Shown one piece after another: positions 10,059 through 62,600 of a stretch of DNA of 64,000 bases (position 1 is its first letter; the number at the start of each line of letters is the position of its first letter). This DNA is from Desulfovibrio sp. JC010 (GTDB lineage Bacteria > Desulfobacterota > Desulfovibrionia > Desulfovibrionales > Desulfovibrionaceae). The translations under genes and the position numbers were made by a program. The notes under the pieces are model-generated. The model had not been told where the DNA came from. It searched no databases and saw nothing but the letters and a program-made list of their open reading frames with translations. The DNA lies in assembly GCF_010470675.1 (NCBI RefSeq), contig NZ_VOIQ01000002.1, positions 1 through 64,000 on the forward strand, given 5' to 3'.

Positions 10059-10928
10059 TTATTCCCACCCCGTCTCACAAACCGCCGCAAACCCGGAAAA
10101 CTTAATCTCCCGGTGATGAAGATACATCCTATCCGCACCATCATCGCGCCCGTAAACAGGATCACCTACGATTGGGAATCCCGCATGGGCGAGATGGGCG
10201 CGAATCTGGTGGCGGGCACCCTTGGCGATGCGTACTTCAAGTAAGGATGTTCCGTCCTCATAACTTTCCAGCAATTCAACGCGACTCCAACGTTCGGACG
10301 GTGCCTGTTCGTCAAGCACTTTGGTCCGTTTGCGGTCGGCGGTATCAAGCAGATTTTTACAGATAAACGATTCTTCCGGAGTGCCGTAAACTTTGGCATG
10401 ATAAATTTTATCCACTGTGCCGCAGTCCTCGTAGGCGCGAAATTCATTTTCCCGCTCTACTCCGAAGGCAACCAGCAGCATTCCCGAAGTAAGATAATCC
10501 AGCCTGTTGGCGAGAATCGGCTCCTGCCCCGCGAAGATTCCGGGCAAGCAATCTTCCACTGAGGATTCCACACTTCCGGCGATTGCAGCGGAATGCAGAC
10601 CTTCCGGCTTGAAAACAGCAGCGAAACCTTCACCCTGCCGAACCACTTTCACCCGCGCTAAAATATCCACGGTACAAGAGAATTCAGCGGGCTCAAGCAA
10701 CACAACTTCCGCGCCAGGAAACATCTTCAAGCCGGAACGGCAGCTGCGCCCATTGACCATCACAAAGCCGTTTTCAATCAGCCGTCTGCGTTCGCGCAGA
10801 CCACTTTCAGGCAGCAGCTTGAGCAGGAATTTATCCACGCGCACGCCCTCATCGCTCTCTTCTGCAATCAGTCTGTCAATTTCGTTCAATTTTTCATCTT
10901 CCGTTTGTGTTAGCTGATTACCGTTCAA
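10059..10928 (-). CDS. RluA-family pseudouridine synthase
   Basis: This 289-residue enzyme isomerises specific uridines in RNA. Residues 28-95 look like an S4-type RNA-binding domain (VRVDKFLLKLLPESGLRERRRLI-like, broken into helices). The catalytic domain follows, with the motif ILANRLDYLTSGML, in which Asp is the nucleophile, and the family closing motif KGARHQIRAHLA. The usual HRLD motif reads NRLD here; the His-to-Asn change is not at the catalytic residue. The target (23S rRNA or tRNA) cannot be told from sequence alone. The start is ATG at 10928; alternatives inside the acidic N-terminus are possible. Confidence 0.87.
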   Translation of the reverse strand: MNGNQLTQTEDEKLNEIDRLIAEESDEGVRVDKFLLKLLPESGLRERRRLIENGFVMVNGRSCRSGLKMFPGAEVVLLEPAEFSCTVDILARVKVVRQGEGFAAVFKPEGLHSAAIAGSVESSVEDCLPGIFAGQEPILANRLDYLTSGMLLVAFGVERENEFRAYEDCGTVDKIYHAKVYGTPEESFICKNLLDTADRKRTKVLDEQAPSERWSRVELLESYEDGTSLLEVRIAKGARHQIRAHLAHAGFPIVGDPVYGRDDGADRMYLHHREIKFSGFAAVCETGWE

Positions 10929-11081
10929 ATCTGGTCAACAGGGTTTACGCTGCAAGGGAAACAGCATACAACTCACTGAACGCATTAAAATTTATTTAAG
11001 CTGCCGTTTTTACAGCACGTACCTATTTTTAAGCTGCCAAACGGACTTGATCAACCTTTTCCCAGTGTAACAGGATCTGCC

Positions 11082-53597: not shown

Positions 53598-54317
53598 ATG
53601 ACAATAAAAAAAATAGCCATCGTCGCGGCCATGGGACAGGAAGCACTGGCCCTCTGCCCTAACCCGAAACGCGGAACTTCCGGTAATTATCCACTGCTTA
53701 CAGGAAATATTTCAAGCACCATAGAATACAGCTGCATTGTATCAGGCATAGGCATCCGGCGTGCATCTGAAGCGGCAAAACTTCTCTGCGCTGAAAAACC
53801 GGATTTAATCATGAGCATCGGGGTGTCCGGGGGCCTTGCTGCTGACCTCCATGCCGGTTCGCTCGTGGCTGCATCATCCATTGGTTCAGATCTGACAGAA
53901 TTTGAAGCATGGTCCGGGAAGAAAAAAGATGTGGAGATCTGCACAGAACTTATCCCCGGCTGGGCAGAGCTGCAATCAGGCAAACTGATCACCGCCCGCA
54001 GACCGCTGCTTACCACGCGAGACAAATCCGCCATGCACAAGAGCAGCAAAGCATTGGCCGTGGATATGGAATCCATCGCAGTGGCACAAGCGGCAAAACA
54101 GGCCGGAATCCCCTTCGGCTGTATCCGGGCCATCAGCGATGACAGCAAACGGTCCATCCCGGAAGAATCACTGATCGGAGTTGATGAATCGGGAAAAACC
54201 AAGCTCGGCCCTATCCTTAAAGCCATAGCCAAACGGCCCGGTCTGATATTCGAACTGGTCCCCGTGGGGCGTGATTATTCAAAGGCTTTAAAAAGTTTGG
54301 GAAAAGTTTTTAAATAA
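53598..54317 (+). CDS. hpnG: HpnG-like hopanoid phosphorylase
   Basis: This 239-residue member of the nucleoside phosphorylase superfamily has IVSGIGIRRASEAAKLL, SIGVSGGLAADLHAGSLV and VDMESIAVAQAAKQAGIPF, the last with the purine-contacting D-M-E-S. In hopanoid pathways HpnG removes adenine from adenosylhopane to give a ribosylhopane. A plain methylthioadenosine nucleosidase is possible from sequence alone, but hpnH, hpnN and hpnO lie within 8 kb, which favours HpnG. It has a good AGAAGGA site. Confidence 0.8.
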   Translation: MTIKKIAIVAAMGQEALALCPNPKRGTSGNYPLLTGNISSTIEYSCIVSGIGIRRASEAAKLLCAEKPDLIMSIGVSGGLAADLHAGSLVAASSIGSDLTEFEAWSGKKKDVEICTELIPGWAELQSGKLITARRPLLTTRDKSAMHKSSKALAVDMESIAVAQAAKQAGIPFGCIRAISDDSKRSIPEESLIGVDESGKTKLGPILKAIAKRPGLIFELVPVGRDYSKALKSLGKVFK

Positions 54318-54691: not shown

Positions 54692-54710
54692 TTAAATATA
54701 CGCAACAAAA

Positions 54711-54742
54711 AAAGCCCGCTGAAGCGAACTTCAGCGGGCTTT
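54711..54742. terminator. Bidirectional terminator
   Basis: A 14-bp perfect stem (54711-54724 with 54729-54742) with a CGAA loop is preceded by A7 and followed by a T run, between the lipoprotein and hpnH. Confidence 0.92.
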
Positions 54743-54761: not shown

Positions 54762-55775
54762 CTAACCCACATCCACACCTTTCAAAGCCAGCATTGCGCC
54801 TTTGAGGGGACGTTTTACTGAATCGGCAACCGCGGTGGGTTCGAAGCCGCAGTGGACCATGCAGTTTGCGCAGCGGGGATCGTTACCCACGCCGAACTTA
54901 TCCCAGTCGGTCTGCTCCATGAGTTCTTTGTAGGAAGAGACAAAGCCGTCTTCCAGCAGATAGCAGGGACGCTGCCAGCCGAGAACGGAACGGGAGGGGT
55001 TGCCCCACGGGGAGCACTTGTAATTCTGGTTTCCGGCCAGAAAATCAAGATAGAAGCTGCTGTGTGAGAAATCCCAGTTTTTGCCCTTGCCGAGCTTGAA
55101 AATCTCCCGGAAAAGTTTCACAGACTGGTCACGGGTCAGGAAGCTATCCTGATCAGCGGCAGCCTCGTAGCTGAATGCTGCGGAAAGGGTCATGCCGTCA
55201 ATTTTTAGGTCCATGAGGAAATCAAAAAATTCTGCTGCGTTCTCAGCAGTCTGCCCGCCGAAGAGGGTGGTGTTGGTTACAACCCGGAACCCTTTGGACT
55301 TGAGCATCTTGATCACGGAAACGCTGTTATCAAAAACCCCGTCCTTGCAGACGATTTTGTCGTGAATCTCTTTCTGTCCGTCCAGATGGAGGTTGAAAGT
55401 CAGGTACGGGCTGGGGGTAAATTCATGAATGCGCTGCGGAACAAGCAGACCGTTTGTACACAGGTATACAAACTTTTTACGCTTGATCAGCTCTTCCACA
55501 ATCTTAGGCATATCAGGGTGCAGCAGCGGCTCACCGCCGGGAATGGAAACAATAGGCGCACCGCATTCTTCCACGGCGTCAATACATTCCTGCACGGAAA
55601 GACGCTTGTTCATGATTTCCGGCGGATGCCCGATTTTACCGCAGCCCTTGCAGCGCAGGTTGCACTGAAAAAGGGGTTCGAGCATGAGTACCAGCGGGTA
55701 ATGCTTATTACCTTTCAAGGTCTGGGTGAGAATGTATTTACCGAGTCTAGCTACTTGAATTGCAGGAATTGCCAA
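54762..55775 (-). CDS. hpnH: HpnH, adenosyl-hopene transferase (radical SAM)
   Basis: This 337-residue radical SAM enzyme joins the adenosyl group of S-adenosylmethionine to diploptene, the first step of hopanoid side-chain synthesis. The cluster motif CxxxCxxC is Cys-38, Cys-42, Cys-45 (CNLRCKGC), followed by the GGEPLLHPD loop and a late Cys-rich segment (CANCMVHCGFEP). The start is TTG at 55775; no in-frame ATG fits, and the N-terminus then matches the family (MAIPAIQVARLGKY). It is the last gene of the hpnN operon. Confidence 0.96.
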   Translation of the reverse strand: MAIPAIQVARLGKYILTQTLKGNKHYPLVLMLEPLFQCNLRCKGCGKIGHPPEIMNKRLSVQECIDAVEECGAPIVSIPGGEPLLHPDMPKIVEELIKRKKFVYLCTNGLLVPQRIHEFTPSPYLTFNLHLDGQKEIHDKIVCKDGVFDNSVSVIKMLKSKGFRVVTNTTLFGGQTAENAAEFFDFLMDLKIDGMTLSAAFSYEAAADQDSFLTRDQSVKLFREIFKLGKGKNWDFSHSSFYLDFLAGNQNYKCSPWGNPSRSVLGWQRPCYLLEDGFVSSYKELMEQTDWDKFGVGNDPRCANCMVHCGFEPTAVADSVKRPLKGAMLALKGVDVG

Positions 55776-55811
55776 GGTCTTAACCTCATTTCCGCCGCAT
55801 GGGGGCGGGTT

Positions 55812-56534
55812 TTATTTTTCAGCGGTCTTTCGTGCCTCACAGGCTTTGACCAGCTTTTTACAGGAATCAACTTTTAATAACTTTTCATCAAAGCATTTGC
55901 TTTGCAGGGCCTTGTCGTAATGTGTGCAGGCTTCCTCCACTTCATCGTCCTCAAGTAAAGCTGTTGCCAGCCCAAGACGGTTCATGGCAAAATCCGGCGC
56001 GACTTTAACGGCCTTTTCGTAATACTCCAGCGCGTTATCCATATCCCCGATACTGATGGGCGCGGAAGGTGCTTTCAAATAAAGCTCACCCAGAAAACGA
56101 TCCGGGCCTCCATGATCCACCTGCGGAGAAAGTTTGGACGCTGCGATTGCTTCTTGCTCCATCTGCGGCACAAGGTCAAGACCCTTCATGGGAGCAAGCT
56201 GAGCCTCTTTAGCAATTAAATAAGCCAAAAGATAGTGGCCCAGACCGGATTGCTTATTTTTACCCAGAAAAGACCTCAATTTTGCCTGTGAAGATTTTGC
56301 GTAATCAGCGGACTTGACGGCTCCGCTCTCCAGCAGCCATGCCGAACAGGCCGCCCCTTGCAGGATATCGTTATCCTTGGAAGAATTGGAAAGCACTTCG
56401 GCCTGAGCCCGTGAACACGGTTTCCAGAGCACCACTCCGTCCGCATCATATTCATAAAGGGGCAGGTCATATTTCGCTGAACATCCGCAAACAAGCAGCA
56501 CCAGCAGCAACGGTAGTAAGCGCAGCAACTTCAT
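55812..56534 (-). CDS. TPR lipoprotein in the hpnN operon
   Basis: This 240-residue lipoprotein has a signal peptide with lipobox (LLVCGC). The C-terminal half has TPR-like helices (GDMDNALEYYEKAVKVAPDFAMNRLGLATALLEDDEVEEA in segments); the N-terminal half is not recognised. The layout recalls the T component of TRAP transporters. It overlaps the PhnD-like gene by one base (TAATG) and is followed 36 bases later by hpnH, so it is probably part of hopanoid handling; this is inferred from context only. Confidence 0.78.
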   Translation of the reverse strand: MKLLRLLPLLLVLLVCGCSAKYDLPLYEYDADGVVLWKPCSRAQAEVLSNSSKDNDILQGAACSAWLLESGAVKSADYAKSSQAKLRSFLGKNKQSGLGHYLLAYLIAKEAQLAPMKGLDLVPQMEQEAIAASKLSPQVDHGGPDRFLGELYLKAPSAPISIGDMDNALEYYEKAVKVAPDFAMNRLGLATALLEDDEVEEACTHYDKALQSKCFDEKLLKVDSCKKLVKACEARKTAEK

Positions 56535-57313
56535 TATCTCAAATCCTTATCAGCAGGGTTGAAACCGGAAGTCTGGAGCAGCTTAAGCAGTTCCCTGGCA
56601 GCCGGGTCTTTATCCATGCCCAGCAGCACAGCCTGAAGCCGGAAAGCGTCATCGGTGGTTTTGTCGAACCAGACCACCGGGCTGTTGGGCAGCTGCGCAG
56701 AAGTATAAATAACCTTGGTATTGGAATAACGGTCCGAATCCTTGATCACCGAATACTGTACAGAGTCCAGCACCACACCGGCAATCTTACCTTTATTCAC
56801 CTTACGAAGCATACGCAGTGCCTTGTGCGTACCTTCCATGCTGAATTTCCCACCTTCTCTTCCGGCAAAGAGTATCTCCATGGCCTGCGGGGTGTAGAGC
56901 ATGGAACCATAGACCCTGCCCTGAACAGCGTCCGGGGACCCGGGACCGTCAGCGGGTACGATCATCCGCCAGACATCCTTTTCCATGCCCTGCGGCAGAG
57001 TGGACGCCACCGGGGTCATGGCGAATTTGTCTGCGTATGTTTTAAAGAAGGTCAGCCCGCAGATAGACCATGCGGGCTTGTTTTTTCCAAGATATTCAAG
57101 AGCAGCGTTCAGGTCATTGTAATAAACGCCTTGAACCTTCTCGCCCAGCCGGGCGGAAAGATATTTACCCAGTTCATCCATTACCGGCTGCGCTTCGGCT
57201 GTTGTACCCGGCTGACCGGGCTGGATGATGGCAAAATCAAATCTTCCGGCGGAAGCAGCAGAACTCAGTCCGAGCAGCAGAACAAATACAAGTGCGATAA
57301 CTTTTCTGTACAT
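56534..57313 (-). CDS. PhnD-like periplasmic binding protein in the hpnN operon
   Basis: This 259-residue exported protein (signal peptide, cleavage near ASAGRF) has the PhnD/SsuA-type fold used for phosphonate or phosphate-like ligands: FDFAIIQPGQPG, SICGLTFFKTYAD, RVYGSMLYTPQAMEILF, and IAGVVLDSVQYSVI. No ABC permease or ATPase is nearby; instead the gene lies three bases after hpnN, so it may bind a lipid head group and work with the RND pump. Confidence 0.75.
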   Translation of the reverse strand: MYRKVIALVFVLLLGLSSAASAGRFDFAIIQPGQPGTTAEAQPVMDELGKYLSARLGEKVQGVYYNDLNAALEYLGKNKPAWSICGLTFFKTYADKFAMTPVASTLPQGMEKDVWRMIVPADGPGSPDAVQGRVYGSMLYTPQAMEILFAGREGGKFSMEGTHKALRMLRKVNKGKIAGVVLDSVQYSVIKDSDRYSNTKVIYTSAQLPNSPVVWFDKTTDDAFRLQAVLLGMDKDPAARELLKLLQTSGFNPADKDLR

Positions 57314-57316
57314 AAA

Positions 57317-60013
57317 CTACTTTCCTTTAATCCTTTCAATCAATCTGAACACAGCGGGCAGAACCACCATGCAGCCCACAAGACAGGTGGCAGACCCGGT
57401 AACCATAATGCCGCCCAGCGAAGCAAGGCCGCGATGGTGGGCCAAAAGCAGTCCCCCGAACCCGATCATTGTGGTGCAGAAACTAAGCCCCACCGCCACC
57501 GGAGTGCTGGTATGGTAAAGCCGCTCCCCTTGGGAAAGCTCTTTCCAGCGGGCCAGAAAATGGACTCCGCCGTCAACACCGATGGCGATAAGTACAGGAA
57601 TAGCAAAGAAATTGGCTAAATTAAAGCTCAGTCCGGTAATTCCCATGATCTCCAGCAGCCAGAAAATCCCGGCAAACAAGGGAACAAGAGTCAGCAGAAC
57701 ATAACTGATGCTGAATGAACTTAAGAAAAGAATGGCCGAAACCAGAATGATGGTCAGCCCTGCGGCCTCAAGAAAGGTCTCGCGCATAAGCAGAGAGGAT
57801 TCAAGAACCACCACCGGAACCCCGGTCACTTCGGGGTCGATCCTGCGCAGGTCGGCCACGAATCCGGTCAGTTTGTCAAAATCCCAGACATTGCCTACCG
57901 GAGAAATCTTGACCATAAAGCTGCCGTCCTTGCCAACATAAAGGGAACGTAAATGTTCGGGCAGGTCATTCGGGTCAACGGACTTCACTTCCAGAATTTC
58001 CTTAAGCCATGCAAATGAGCCGGAAAGCTCGCTGACCAGCCGGGCCTGAAGCGGAGTCAGGTTGACTGCATCTGCAGGATTTTTTTCAAGTATCTCAAGG
58101 CAGGAATCTGCCCGGTCAATGATCTCACCGACTTTTTCCAGCTCCGCTTTGGCCCCGGCGGAAAAGAGTTTTTCCTCCAGTCCTTCAAGGGATTCAATCA
58201 GGTTCTCAAGCCCGGACACAACTTCGGAAGGCACAAGGGATGAATTGCGTGCTTCAAGATTGATTCCGGCCAGTGCTTCCGCTTCACCGCGCAGGATTTC
58301 TGCTTTTTCCTGCTGGCCTTCGGGCAGAAAGCCGAGAATGGAATCAACGCGGCCCACCGAAGGGATCTGCTTGAGTTCAGCAATGAGTGATTTTACGGAT
58401 TCCAAATCCGGGCGGGTCATCACCGCGAACCAAGTGGATTCATCGGAATCATTGATCAGAACATGTTCGTACTCAACAGACTCCAGACCTTCAGCCTGAA
58501 GATCCAGCAGATTGTAGTTGAATCCGGCCTTCTGGAATCCGGGAAAAGCCAGCGCGGTCAGGACCGCAAAAACCAGCAGTACGGTTACCGGGCGGGAAAT
58601 AATCTTTTCCATGAAGGGCATGGTGGCCATGCGCGGACGCGAAGACGGGAACCAGTTGCGCCGCCCGGCAATAAGCATCATGGAAGGCAGTACGGTAAGC
58701 ATGGAAATCAGGCAGAAAATAATCCCGGTTCCGCCCACAAGGCCCAGTTCGGCCAGCCCCACAAACTCCTGTCCCAGCACGGCGTAGAAAGCACAGACCG
58801 AAGTCAGCCCGCCCAGCAATACACCGGGGCCGGTATGGACGAGGGCTTCTTCCACTGCCTCATCAGGAGACAACCCCGAATCCGAAGCCTCCACATAACG
58901 CATGACAATATGGATACCGAAATCCACACCGATACCGACCAGCACAAGGGCAAATACAATGGAAAGCAGATTCAGGCTGCCCAGCGCGACCAGCGTGAAC
59001 CCGAAGGTCCAGGCCATGGCGCAAAAAAGCGAGCCCATAACCAGCATGGGCCGCAGCCAGCCGTGCAGGATGAACATGAACATCAGCCCGACCACAACCA
59101 CTGAAATAATGGCCGCAATGGTCATATCCTGATCGGTAGTATGCATTTCATCGGCGGAAAGTACCGGGCGTCCGGTGAGTCCGGCCTCAACTTCCGGGAA
59201 CTCAGTCCGCACTGTTTCAAGGGATGAGCGCACAAAATTAAGCGAAGGTCCGATCACATCCATAACCCGGAAATCCTTCTTGGGCAGGATACGCATGATC
59301 AGCAGCTTGCCGTTGCGGGTGAAGAAATACTGGATTCCGGCCTTGTCGAGATCGAAAACCGGGGCATTCATGGTTTCAAGGGTCGGCCCGGAAACAAGGG
59401 AAGACTGCATCTCGCCCACAAGATTATCCACTGCGCCGATAAACGGACCGAACATTTCCGGTCCGGCACTGCCGCCCTGCTCTGTGCCTTTTTTGCCGCT
59501 AAGCAGATCAGCTGTCATGTTCAGAAAACGAGTCAGTCCCGGTTCTTCAAACCATTCCTTACCCAGCGGACCGAAATCACGGGCAAGGGATACGAACTGG
59601 CGCAGCTCGTCCGAAGAGGCGAACATGAGCACCCCCGGCCCCATGTCACGGGCGGACATGGCGTAGTGCACTTCCTTGACCAGATCGGGACGTTTCTTGA
59701 GTTTAGTGGCGAGAGTGGCGGCAAACTTGGCGGCCTTATCCTTCCCCGCATCAGTGCCCCCGGTCTTAATGACCACAAACATGTATTCCTGATCACCGAA
59801 ATTCTTAATCTGCTCAAGATTGCGCTTCTGAAAGGGAAGCTCGTGGGAAATGAGGTTGTCCTGATCGCTGTCCAGCTTCAGCCAGAGAGCGGAAGAAGCG
59901 GCGCAGACAGCGGCCATCAACACAGCGCACAGAACAATGGCAACAGGTGCCTTGCGGACCAGCCCCCAGATGGAGCGAATTACTTTCTCTAAAACATTAT
60001 AAAAAATATTCAT
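57317..60013 (-). CDS. hpnN: HpnN-like RND hopanoid exporter
   Basis: This 898-residue MMPL/RND protein has a first helix near 25-48, a periplasmic loop to about 300, a block of five helices (about 305-450, with IGVDFGIHIVMRYVE), a second loop and a final helix block (745-890, with IGVDGGVHFLARWKE). This two-block pattern is that of HpnN, which moves hopanoids to the outer membrane. It heads the operon hpnN, phnD-like, TPR lipoprotein, hpnH. Confidence 0.9.
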   Translation of the reverse strand: MNIFYNVLEKVIRSIWGLVRKAPVAIVLCAVLMAAVCAASSALWLKLDSDQDNLISHELPFQKRNLEQIKNFGDQEYMFVVIKTGGTDAGKDKAAKFAATLATKLKKRPDLVKEVHYAMSARDMGPGVLMFASSDELRQFVSLARDFGPLGKEWFEEPGLTRFLNMTADLLSGKKGTEQGGSAGPEMFGPFIGAVDNLVGEMQSSLVSGPTLETMNAPVFDLDKAGIQYFFTRNGKLLIMRILPKKDFRVMDVIGPSLNFVRSSLETVRTEFPEVEAGLTGRPVLSADEMHTTDQDMTIAAIISVVVVGLMFMFILHGWLRPMLVMGSLFCAMAWTFGFTLVALGSLNLLSIVFALVLVGIGVDFGIHIVMRYVEASDSGLSPDEAVEEALVHTGPGVLLGGLTSVCAFYAVLGQEFVGLAELGLVGGTGIIFCLISMLTVLPSMMLIAGRRNWFPSSRPRMATMPFMEKIISRPVTVLLVFAVLTALAFPGFQKAGFNYNLLDLQAEGLESVEYEHVLINDSDESTWFAVMTRPDLESVKSLIAELKQIPSVGRVDSILGFLPEGQQEKAEILRGEAEALAGINLEARNSSLVPSEVVSGLENLIESLEGLEEKLFSAGAKAELEKVGEIIDRADSCLEILEKNPADAVNLTPLQARLVSELSGSFAWLKEILEVKSVDPNDLPEHLRSLYVGKDGSFMVKISPVGNVWDFDKLTGFVADLRRIDPEVTGVPVVVLESSLLMRETFLEAAGLTIILVSAILFLSSFSISYVLLTLVPLFAGIFWLLEIMGITGLSFNLANFFAIPVLIAIGVDGGVHFLARWKELSQGERLYHTSTPVAVGLSFCTTMIGFGGLLLAHHRGLASLGGIMVTGSATCLVGCMVVLPAVFRLIERIKGK

Positions 60014-60157: not shown

Positions 60158-61540
60158 CTATGAAGTCTTAGCTGTCCTGATTCCGAGATCCTTGACGGTT
60201 TTCCATGCCGATCCGGTAATCTTGTGCGCTTCCTTGAGTACGTCATCCATGGCGGCGAGGAATTTATCCACGTCCTCGTCATTGATCATCAGCGGGGGCA
60301 GGATTTTAACGGTATCAAGACCGTGCCCGGCAACCTGACTGAGGATGTTGTGCTTTTCCAGCAGCGGCATGGTGATCATCTGGCAGAAGAGATCATCATT
60401 CATCTTGTGCAGCAGTTTCCAGCTGGCTTTCAGGGCCATGGACTTAGGTTCGCCGAACTGCATGCCGATCATAAGCCCCTTGGCGCGGACTTCAGTGAGC
60501 ATCTCATACTTATCGGCAAGTTTCTGCAACCCTTCTTCAATGCGCGCGCCCATTCCGGCTGCATTTTCGGCCAGATTATCTTCCTCCATAATCTCGATGG
60601 TCGCCAGTCCGGCAGCCATGGCCAGATCGTTCTGACCGAAGGTGTTGGAATGGGCAAAACAGCGTTCCATGGAATCAAAAATTCTGCCATGAATCTCACG
60701 GGTGGTGATGATGGCTCCAACCGGGATGTAACCGCCGGAAAGAGCCTTGGAGATAACCAGAATATCCGGCTTCACGCCCCAATGATCCACAGCGAACATC
60801 TTTCCGGTCCTCCCCATGCCGCACTGCACTTCGTCGGCAATCATGTAGGTGCCGTACTTGTCGCAGAGTTCGCGCACACCCTGCAGGTAACCGTCGTCAG
60901 GGACAAAAACGCCCTTGCCCTGCACGGTTTCAAGAATAAACGCGCCCACATCGCCGCCCTTGAGCGCATCTTCCAGAGCTTCAAGATCGTTAAAGGGCAC
61001 GGGAGTACAATCCGGCAGCAAAGGCTCGTTGCGATCCCTGAATTCACGGTTGGCGTTTACGGACAGCGAACCGAGGGTCAACCCGTGAAAAGCATGATGA
61101 CAATGGACCAGCTTATGCTTGCCGCTGGCCTGACGGGCGAATTTAAGTGCCCCTTCAACCCCTTCCGTACCGGAGTTGGTGAAAAAAACGGCTTCAAGGT
61201 CACCGGGAGCAAGCTCGGCCAGCTTTTCAGCCAGCATGCCGGACATGACACCGAGATCCATCTGCACAATGCTGGCGGTCTTTTCATCCATCACTTCCTT
61301 AAGCACATCGGCCACATAAGGATGGTTGCGCCCGATGTTGTACACACCGAACCCGGAGAGGAAATCAAGGACTTTCACACCCTTGGCATCGGTCAGATAT
61401 GCCCCCTCGGAAGAAACATAGTTGCGGTCATAGCCGATTACTTCGAGGACCCGCACAAACTGGGGGTTCACATATTTGCGGTGCAGCTCGTAAGCCTCCG
61501 CCATTCTTTCCCTATATTTTTTAATAATCTCAGAACTCAT
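60158..61540 (-). CDS. hpnO: HpnO-like aminotransferase of hopanoid synthesis
   Basis: This 460-residue class III, PLP-dependent aminotransferase belongs to the subgroup that converts ribosylhopane to aminobacteriohopanetriol. PLP-site segments are FTNSGTEGVEGALKFAR, IADEVQCGMGRTG and the Schiff-base Lys in ISKALSGGYIPVG. The ATG at 61540 is preferred to the TTG at 61555 because GGAG sits nine bases ahead of the ATG. It is 145 bases upstream of hpnN on the same strand. Hopanoid genes around it support the assignment over ornithine-type aminotransferases. Confidence 0.88.
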   Translation of the reverse strand: MSSEIIKKYRERMAEAYELHRKYVNPQFVRVLEVIGYDRNYVSSEGAYLTDAKGVKVLDFLSGFGVYNIGRNHPYVADVLKEVMDEKTASIVQMDLGVMSGMLAEKLAELAPGDLEAVFFTNSGTEGVEGALKFARQASGKHKLVHCHHAFHGLTLGSLSVNANREFRDRNEPLLPDCTPVPFNDLEALEDALKGGDVGAFILETVQGKGVFVPDDGYLQGVRELCDKYGTYMIADEVQCGMGRTGKMFAVDHWGVKPDILVISKALSGGYIPVGAIITTREIHGRIFDSMERCFAHSNTFGQNDLAMAAGLATIEIMEEDNLAENAAGMGARIEEGLQKLADKYEMLTEVRAKGLMIGMQFGEPKSMALKASWKLLHKMNDDLFCQMITMPLLEKHNILSQVAGHGLDTVKILPPLMINDEDVDKFLAAMDDVLKEAHKITGSAWKTVKDLGIRTAKTS

Positions 61541-61657
61541 TTTAACAGGCTCCAATGTATTTCAATATTAAGCAGCTGAATTATTTTTTGGGGAAAATAC
61601 TCCCCTTCCCCCCTGCGGTCAATGGGTTATCTCCGGTTTAAGACTGAAACAAGCACA

Positions 61658-61751: not shown

Positions 61752-62600
61752 ATGGTTGAAGTTATCAGAGCTAAAACAGCCGGATTCTGCATGGGCGTAG
61801 ACCTCGCTCTCAACAAGCTGGATTCCCTGATTGAGAAAGACGAAGATAGAAAAATATACATTCTGGGACCGATCATCCACAACCCGCAGGTTCTGGAAGA
61901 TTATGAAAAACAGGGTGTAATCACCGCCACAACCCCGGAAGAAGTACCCGAAGGTGCATATGTGGTTATCCGGGCCCACGGCATTCCCAAAGCTGTAGAA
62001 GAAGACCTGCGCCAGCGCGGTGTAAACGTAATCGACGCAACCTGCCCCAAGGTCAAAAAAGCGCAGCTGCTCATCCAGCGCAATACTGAAGATGACCGTG
62101 TACTTCTTCTTTACGGCGAAGACAGTCACCCGGAAGTGAAAGGACTGCTCAGCTACGGACCAGAAGGACCGCACCTTTTTGACTCCCTTGAAGAGCTTCA
62201 GGACATTGAACTGGACCCGAACCGGAAGTACTGCCTCGCAGCCCAGACCACTCAGGACCGTGCCGTATACGCGGACTGCATCCAGTATCTTGAAAGCAAG
62301 GGCATCGAATTCGTAACCCTGAACACCATCTGTGACGCCACCCGCCAGCGTCAGGACGAAGCCATCACCCTTTCCGGTGAAGTGGACCACATGATTGTTG
62401 TGGGCGGTCGCATCTCCGGCAACACCCGCCGTCTGGTGCAGGTTGTCGAGACAGCGGGCACCAAATGCACCCATGTTGAAATCGCTGACGAACTCCCTCT
62501 TGAAGACCTTAAAGACATAGACAAGATCGGACTCACCGCCGGGGCATCCACCCCTAAAAGGCTGGTGGACGGAATTCAGAAGATTCTGGAAGACTTGTAG
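61752..62600 (+). CDS. ispH: 4-hydroxy-3-methylbut-2-enyl diphosphate reductase IspH
   Basis: This 282-residue iron-sulfur enzyme makes IPP and DMAPP in the last step of the MEP pathway. The three cluster cysteines are Cys-13 (AGFCMGV), Cys-98 (DATCPKV) and Cys-194 (NTICDATRQRQ). A strong GGAGG site precedes the ATG. It is divergent from hpnO and feeds isoprenoid units to hopanoids and quinones. Confidence 0.97.
   Translation: MVEVIRAKTAGFCMGVDLALNKLDSLIEKDEDRKIYILGPIIHNPQVLEDYEKQGVITATTPEEVPEGAYVVIRAHGIPKAVEEDLRQRGVNVIDATCPKVKKAQLLIQRNTEDDRVLLLYGEDSHPEVKGLLSYGPEGPHLFDSLEELQDIELDPNRKYCLAAQTTQDRAVYADCIQYLESKGIEFVTLNTICDATRQRQDEAITLSGEVDHMIVVGGRISGNTRRLVQVVETAGTKCTHVEIADELPLEDLKDIDKIGLTAGASTPKRLVDGIQKILEDL

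Follow-up and report, generated by a model that had tools for sequence, protein, structure and literature searches.

A BstABC-like gene set linked to hopanoid genes in Desulfovibrio and other anaerobes suggests how hopanoids may cross the cell envelope

Gene content of the locus

Hopanoids are sterol-like bacterial lipids. Here we describe a compact gene set in Desulfovibrio sp. JC010, at positions 54762-60013 of a 64,000-nucleotide stretch (contig NZ_VOIQ01000002.1, positions 1 to 64,000; hereafter the window), in which genes for a resistance-nodulation-division (RND) pump, a PhnD-like periplasmic binding protein (the carrier) and a tetratricopeptide repeat (TPR) lipoprotein, together referred to as the trio, are followed by hpnH. 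Our analysis ties a gene set of the Bst kind to hopanoid genes in anaerobes and suggests how hopanoids may cross the cell envelope in some anaerobes. The four genes are, from 5' to 3':

57317-60013, minus strand: HpnN-like RND (MMPL) pump, 898 amino acids (PF03176, 97.5 bits)
56534-57313, minus strand: BstB-like periplasmic binding protein (PhnD-like), 259 amino acids (Phosphonate-bd PF12974, 64.3 bits, gathering score 27)
55812-56534, minus strand: BstC-like TPR lipoprotein, 240 amino acids (TPR repeats, profile, Foldseek and lipobox)
54762-55775, minus strand: hpnH, adenosylhopene transferase (radical S-adenosylmethionine enzyme), 337 amino acids (TIGR03470, 528.3 bits, above the cut-off of 225.05)

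The order, the coordinates and the gaps of 3, -1 and 36 bases between these genes, as given by an earlier reading of the letters of this DNA (the sequence-only reading), were confirmed from the open reading frames (ORFs) of the window, and a class III aminotransferase gene lies a further 144 bases upstream of the pump. HpnH is the only one of the four to clear a curated NCBIfam cut-off. In the source genome (G000, completeness 99.96), a single cyclase gene is present, on another contig, and scores above the hopene-cyclase cut-off.

Kinship of the carrier, the lipoprotein and the pump

BstABC is a proposed 4-methylsterol transporter of Methylococcus capsulatus, of which BstB and BstC are reported to bind sterols (PMC10942540). 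When a profile of 25 orthologous carriers was compared with PDB sequences, it matched BstB (7t1m) at 1.3e-30, with the next match at 7.6e-4; a separate profile match to BstB at 7e-58 was not used, as its alignment contained L028, itself a BstB. Each of the 25 carriers had BstB as its sole NCBIfam family match at 1e-5, the window carrier scoring 68.8 bits with NF045601, below the curated cut-off of 350. Two structural aligners agreed for the AlphaFold2 model of the carrier (predicted local distance difference test, pLDDT, 90.8): BstB 7t1m is its closest solved fold in Foldseek (rank 1, 2.9e-19) and in VIA-align (Z 22.9, root-mean-square deviation 2.6 over 237 residues; next 20.1), fold families absent from the VIA-align lists not being thereby excluded. 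The N-terminal hydrophobic helix was judged by eye to be a signal peptide.

The sequence-only reading had suggested that the protein could transport a hopanoid head group or a phosphorylated intermediate. A role with a head-group phosphate or a phosphonate is not supported, as BstB is nearer than PhnD by both sequence and structure. Ordinary binding of phosphonates or phosphorylated intermediates draws on membership of PF12974, at 64.3 bits, and has in our view very little chance of being correct: the carrier scores 22.8 bits with PhnD TIGR03431 (cut-off 261.1), PhnD 3p7i comes 8th in the Foldseek ranking and 10th in that of VIA-align (Z 17.7, compared with 22.9 for BstB), and the S-x-S-G motif visible in AioX, which we take to be an oxyanion loop, occurs in one of 30 carrier orthologs, where it is off the aligned loop. 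Phosphonate binding was rejected as the principal interpretation, since in the profile comparison PhnD and AioX are much more distant than BstB, which also comes first by structure. A PhnD-like protein lacking an ATP-binding cassette (ABC) transporter had also been thought odd, yet BstB offers a precedent, and the missing transporter is explained by BstB likewise being encoded beside an RND pump; no ABC partners were present among the seven block and flank proteins scanned, the rest of the genome not being searched for them. ArrX and AioX follow directly after BstB in the Foldseek ranking, as might be expected if the protein were a sensor of a hopanoid or a stress ligand instead of a carrier. 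We regard this as highly improbable, given that BstB comes first by sequence and structure, that the window block has no sensor kinase gene and that a lipoprotein gene adjoins the carrier gene in 29 of 30 genomes (exception L048).

Most of 30 orthologs have polar residues at carrier positions 31, 105, 210, 211 and 248, and the BstB sterol-head contacts E118, Y120 and N192 become D113, W115 and D183 in the window carrier. Asp113 is present in 29 of the 30 (glutamate in one) and Asp183 in 26 (asparagine in four, L011-L014). We speculate that a hydroxylated side chain would fit well in a pocket of greater polarity.

For the lipoprotein, a profile of 21 orthologs matched BstC (7t1s) at 2.9e-27 in a single 135-residue stretch, and the AlphaFold2 model (pLDDT 90.8) likewise had BstC 7t1s as its best Foldseek match (6.7e-8). 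The window lipoprotein scores 80 bits with BstC NF045602, below the curated cut-off of 350. The cysteine of the lipobox column is invariant in all 27 aligned lipoproteins, and a lipoprotein signal was recognised by eye.

By its sequence the pump is HpnN-like and falls short of curated HpnN. Its closest solved sequences are HpnN 6wu0 (2e-52) and then 5khn, and its scores stay below the cut-offs of HpnN TIGR03480 (521.7, cut-off 751.85), NF052374 (331.4, cut-off 1100) and BstA NF045600 (275.3 bits, cut-off 1400). The sequence-only reading had named it HpnN; the protein is like HpnN but misses both curated HpnN families. In a tree of 54 pumps, 25 trio pumps formed one group (Shimodaira-Hasegawa-like approximate likelihood ratio test, SH-aLRT, 100), separate from classical HpnN (99); the contig includes a pump at 27 trio loci, of which L042 and L051 were left out of the tree as their pumps are incomplete. 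Asp364 and Asp814 (codon 57572-57574 in the window) are invariant in six pumps of the genus, and solved HpnN 6wu0 has an aspartate aligned to Asp364 and an alanine aligned to Asp814.

The same proteins could also work in reverse, retrieving hopanoids from the outer to the inner membrane. Periplasmic binding proteins usually serve uptake, PF12974 is named for ABC import, and BstC has been assigned to the TatT / TRAP T-component family, which is named for import (PMC10942540). However, the seven scanned proteins include no ABC components, and the nearest solved pump, HpnN, is described as a hopanoid exporter (PMC12583986), so that we consider retrieval distinctly unlikely and export the better reading.

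Conservation of the gene set and its link with hopanoid synthesis

Strong carrier matches were found in six of 120 genomes of the order, all from the window's genus, all with a cyclase above cut-off and all retaining the five-gene order; G038 is the sole other genome of the 120 with such a cyclase, and it has no carrier. In a phylum sample of 297 genomes, 50 have a cyclase match at 1e-20 (49 above cut-off) and four have a strong carrier match (the source genome, G243, G343 and G383), these four all being cyclase-positive, whilst none of the genomes with weak carrier matches (G200, G288, G296 and G398) is cyclase-positive. A scan of a genome collection added 25 further loci and, with three duplicates merged (L031, L037 and L050, whose contigs are equal in length to those of L013, L025 and L027, were counted once with these and taken as the same genomes), brought the total to 31 distinct genomes. 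These include Desulfovibrio, Desulfuromonas, Pelobacter and others, with carrier identity down to 38%. The 26 pattern matches among viral contigs contained no relative.

The pump gene adjoins the carrier gene in 27 of 29 testable genomes (exceptions L052 and L054), a count that includes L051, whose carrier ORF call ran into the pump. A pump matching the trio profile at 1e-60 was detected in 30 of the 31 genomes, the pump of G428 (L052) being divergent (380 bits). Of the 27 genomes testable for hpnH, 26 have it <=3.1 kb from the carrier set; at the exception, L043, unrelated ORFs follow the lipoprotein gene in a genome that has a cyclase. The arrangement differs in L026 and L036, where hpnA sits between the set and hpnH, and in L041, where the cyclase and hpnG intervene and hpnH is on the opposite strand; at L010, an antisense ORF overlaps two genes of the set. 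Beyond the block, a homolog in the window exists for 6 of the 183 ORFs that flank it at 18 loci, a total that also counts antisense ORFs and any carrier ORFs that the overlap filter had masked. As the order is kept in the six genomes of the genus and in most of the 31, with flanks that are mostly unshared, it is not a product of chance, and conservation of the four-gene order, which the sequence-only reading had put forward as a check, is established.

Squalene-hopene cyclase (SHC) was present in 29 of the 31 carrier genomes, compared with 50 of the 297 genomes sampled across the phylum. The 29 are the six of the genus, the three others of the phylum and 20 of the remaining 22 (23 of 25 loci). 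The genomes of L040, L044 and L045 (G416, G420 and G421) have two SHC genes each, both above cut-off. The cyclase was not detected in G414 (NaphS2) or G430 (L054), and both genomes are possibly incomplete. These two genomes are partial instances of what the sequence-only reading had said would tell against it, namely the genes lying next to unrelated genes in hopanoid non-producers: NaphS2 has the full set with hpnH, and in the L054 draft the carrier gene, cut by a contig end, lies behind PIN- and BrnT-domain ORFs. The earlier suggestion that two envelope proteins may work with hopanoid export is supported at the genomic level, by the linkage across families, the co-occurrence with SHC and the kinship with BstB and BstC.

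Neighbouring genes and probable operon boundaries

Four further features border the block in the window:

60158-61555, minus strand: class III aminotransferase, candidate HpnO (aminohopanoid formation; PF00202, 319 bits)
61752-62600, plus strand: ispH, divergent neighbour (isoprenoid precursor supply; TIGR00216, 254.7 bits, cut-off 187.85)
54707-54739, minus strand: terminator-like hairpin 3' of hpnH, with an 11-base stem, a TTCG loop and a T run
53598-54317, plus strand: HpnG-like phosphorylase, convergent neighbour (TIGR03468, 145 bits, below the cut-off of 187)

The operon may, and likely does, start one gene upstream of the pump, at the aminotransferase gene (61555-60158). Of the 25 genomes testable for this, 20 have an aminotransferase gene directly 5' of the pump, four of them with a 4-base overlap. 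Its family membership and position make it a candidate HpnO, and no NCBIfam equivalog cut-off was reached among the best 25 of its 70 matches. Desulfovibrio species are reported to make aminotriol and aminotetrol hopanoids (PMC5100885), which fits such an enzyme at the head of the operon. At the other end, a scan of the window found 21 hairpin sites of this type, that of hpnH among them, compared with 11.6 in shuffled sequence, and the scan alone is therefore no proof of a terminator.

Binding of an amine through the acids at the sterol-head contacts of the carrier was also considered. The acids are kept in L025, L032, L034, L046 and L047, which have no adjacent aminotransferase gene, whereas the Asn183 loci L011-L014 do have one, and the idea is unsupported.

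Other pumps and carriers in the phylum

As to ALTERNATIVES within this phylum, a search with HpnN (TIGR03480) covered 53 genomes, namely all 50 with a cyclase together with G038, G200 and G288, and gave a match at 1e-30 in 39 of them, 13 above and 26 below the cut-off. The four trio genomes among the 53 have one HpnN-family match each at this threshold, the trio pump itself. Flanks of the non-trio pumps below cut-off were retrieved for 15 of 21 such genomes, the other six being without a retrieved locus, and the fetched flanks of these 15 pumps contained no carrier or lipoprotein gene. A MlaC-like gene was present in the flanks of 11 and an outer-membrane-efflux-like gene in nine; five of these loci supplied the sequences for the MlaC model and four those for the efflux model, and family models confirmed four of the MlaC-like proteins as PF05494 and two of the efflux-like proteins as PF02321. 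L101, L104, L106, L109, L112 and L113 have HpnN-like pumps with neighbours of both kinds, in cyclase-bearing genomes. Pumps flanked in this way possibly belong to another lipid export set. Amongst the 13 loci of classical pumps, one (L086) has a MlaC-like neighbour. HpnM (TIGR03481) was above cut-off in none of the 31 trio genomes, compared with five of the 13 classical-HpnN genomes.

Two of the weak carrier matches represent further gene sets. L028 (6280-10651, in G200) is a near-canonical Bst set, with BstB at 378.3 (cut-off 350), BstA at 1261 (cut-off 1400) and BstC at 279 (cut-off 350), and its carrier is 22% identical to the window carrier. G200 gave no cyclase match at 1e-20; it is the only one of five genomes of its family to have the carrier and is listed with 8% contamination, and the L028 contig may be foreign to it. 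Forcing the BstA-like row of L028 with the trio pumps cost 8.1 log-likelihood units in an approximately unbiased (AU) test (p-AU 0.071), its branch being very long (3.79), and joint ancestry of the trio pump and BstA is accordingly neither rejected nor favoured. At L029 (9608-13564, in G288), a BstB-like gene (97 bits) and a BstC-like gene (49 bits) are convergent with a TIGR00921-like RND gene, a third and distant flavour.

These relatives bear on whether the trio carries some other envelope lipid, one important to hopanoid-bearing membranes and merely co-regulated with hopanoid synthesis. The HpnN-like pumps of the phylum also sit beside MlaC and efflux genes, so that the pump family is not confined to a single set of partners; in NaphS2 the trio occurs with no detected cyclase, and the Bst set of L028 is also in a genome without one. 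We judge this unlikely all the same, given that in many families the trio is tightly enclosed by the HpnH and aminotransferase genes, and given the presence of SHC in 29 of 31 genomes.

A proposed relay for hopanoids

We lean towards a reading, held with a little better than even confidence, in which the three proteins of the trio make up a BstABC-like relay with hopanoids, in place of sterols, as its cargo. By analogy with BstABC and HpnN, this would be the simplest reading. Bacteriohopanepolyols would be made by SHC, HpnH, the HpnG-like enzyme and probably the aminotransferase; the HpnN-like pump, presumably driven by protons, would extract them from the inner membrane; the BstB-like protein would ferry them through the periplasm; and the BstC-like lipoprotein, with a putative placement at the outer membrane, would receive them there, the hand-over presuming contacts among the three proteins.

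Several observations weigh against this relay. No curated BstA, BstB, BstC or HpnN cut-off is reached by the trio. For the lipoprotein, a designed TPR array outranks BstC by whole-chain E-value in the profile comparison (1.1e-39, from summed short repeats), BstC is ninth when the single window sequence is the query, and in VIA-align BstC (Z 18.3) is tied with a eukaryotic TPR domain (17.7). Hydrophobic residues occupy 11 of the 19 columns of the BstB tail pocket in the window carrier, 16 of the 19 in BstB itself and 13 of 17 in AioX; as AioX is equally hydrophobic in those columns, pocket hydrophobicity fails as a test of a lipid ligand. The set is also incomplete in places: L052 (885-3509, G428) keeps the carrier and lipoprotein genes and hpnH but has no pump beside them, the only matching pump of that genome being the divergent one, and in L048 the lipoprotein gene is a decayed short remnant (10777-10965) between an intact carrier gene and hpnH. 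The 13 classical HpnN pumps (L085-L097) have no carrier or lipoprotein gene within about 1.5 kb, which implies that such partners are not generally needed for hopanoid export. Finally, weaker MlaC-family matches occur in 29 of the 31 trio genomes, so that an alternative lipid carrier is available and these proteins could be the carriers.

The set supplies two concrete candidates for the steps that follow the pump in hopanoid transport, with solved homologs as a guide and from a group with known makers of aminohopanoids.

Comparison with known systems

The trio resembles BstA-BstB-BstC (PDB 7t1m, 7t1s) in that an RND pump, a PF12974 binding protein and a TPR-type lipoprotein are encoded contiguously and near triterpenoid genes. 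It differs in that the window carrier is about 21% identical to BstB by structural alignment, all three proteins are below the Bst cut-offs, HpnN models give the pump a higher score than those of BstA, and the neighbours are hopanoid genes and not sterol genes. In place of sterol-synthesis neighbours, the carrier here has HpnH, in a genome whose one cyclase gene is above the hopene-cyclase cut-off; squalene epoxidase (PF08491) was found in none of 33, but 14 controls were silent as well, which makes that search uninformative on sterol synthesis. The passages of PMC10942540 on BstC relatives name Deltaproteobacteria, with no mention of linkage with hopanoid genes. We found no report of such linkage for Bst-type genes among the papers searched, which included few subscription papers or preprints; the one paper among them that mentions hopanoids together with BstA or BstB is PMC10942540.

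HpnN (6wu0, 5khn, 5khs) shares with the trio pump the hopanoid gene context and the aspartate aligned to Asp364, and is its nearest solved sequence; unlike HpnN, the trio pump stays below both HpnN cut-offs and forms a separate group in the tree. HpnN is said in PMC6394551 to act without co-transcribed periplasmic or outer-membrane partners, and a 2025 survey of Alphaproteobacteria describes HpnN as the hopanoid exporter, with HpnM possibly involved (PMC12583986). As a periplasmic protein proposed in hopanoid transport (PMC12583986) and encoded beside HpnN-like pumps in relatives, HpnM/MlaC is like the carrier, but it belongs to an unrelated family, PF05494, whereas the carrier belongs to PF12974. 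AmeABCD, a monoterpene efflux system described from Castellaniella, similarly combines a HAE3-type RND pump with partners of its own in the periplasm and the outer membrane, although these are of different families (PMC6394551). The lipoprotein shares its TPR architecture with the TatT / TRAP T-component family (Tp0956, PDB 3u64), but PF16811 was matched at 0.001 by just one of 21 lipoprotein orthologs, and the carrier shares the PF12974 fold with PhnD (3p7i) but misses the TIGR03431 cut-off and ranks PhnD structurally below BstB.

A fourth kind of gene offers a further parallel. The hpnA of L026 (7455-8498) scores 494.6 bits with TIGR03466, above cut-off, and its second match is the sterol demethylase SdmB (233 bits, cut-off 600), whose gene adjoins bstABC in Methylococcus (PMC10942540). 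The relation of HpnA to SdmB means that hopanoid and sterol clusters mirror each other in this gene. Tentatively, and with more doubt than conviction, we propose that BstABC and the hopanoid trio could both have branched from a single ancient machine for triterpenoid export, of which the methanotroph sterol set would be one specialised branch and which in these anaerobes would replace the MlaC-like HpnM as the periplasmic hopanoid carrier. With a proposed bacterial sterol-transport set now linked to hopanoid export, a common origin of sterol and hopanoid trafficking becomes testable.

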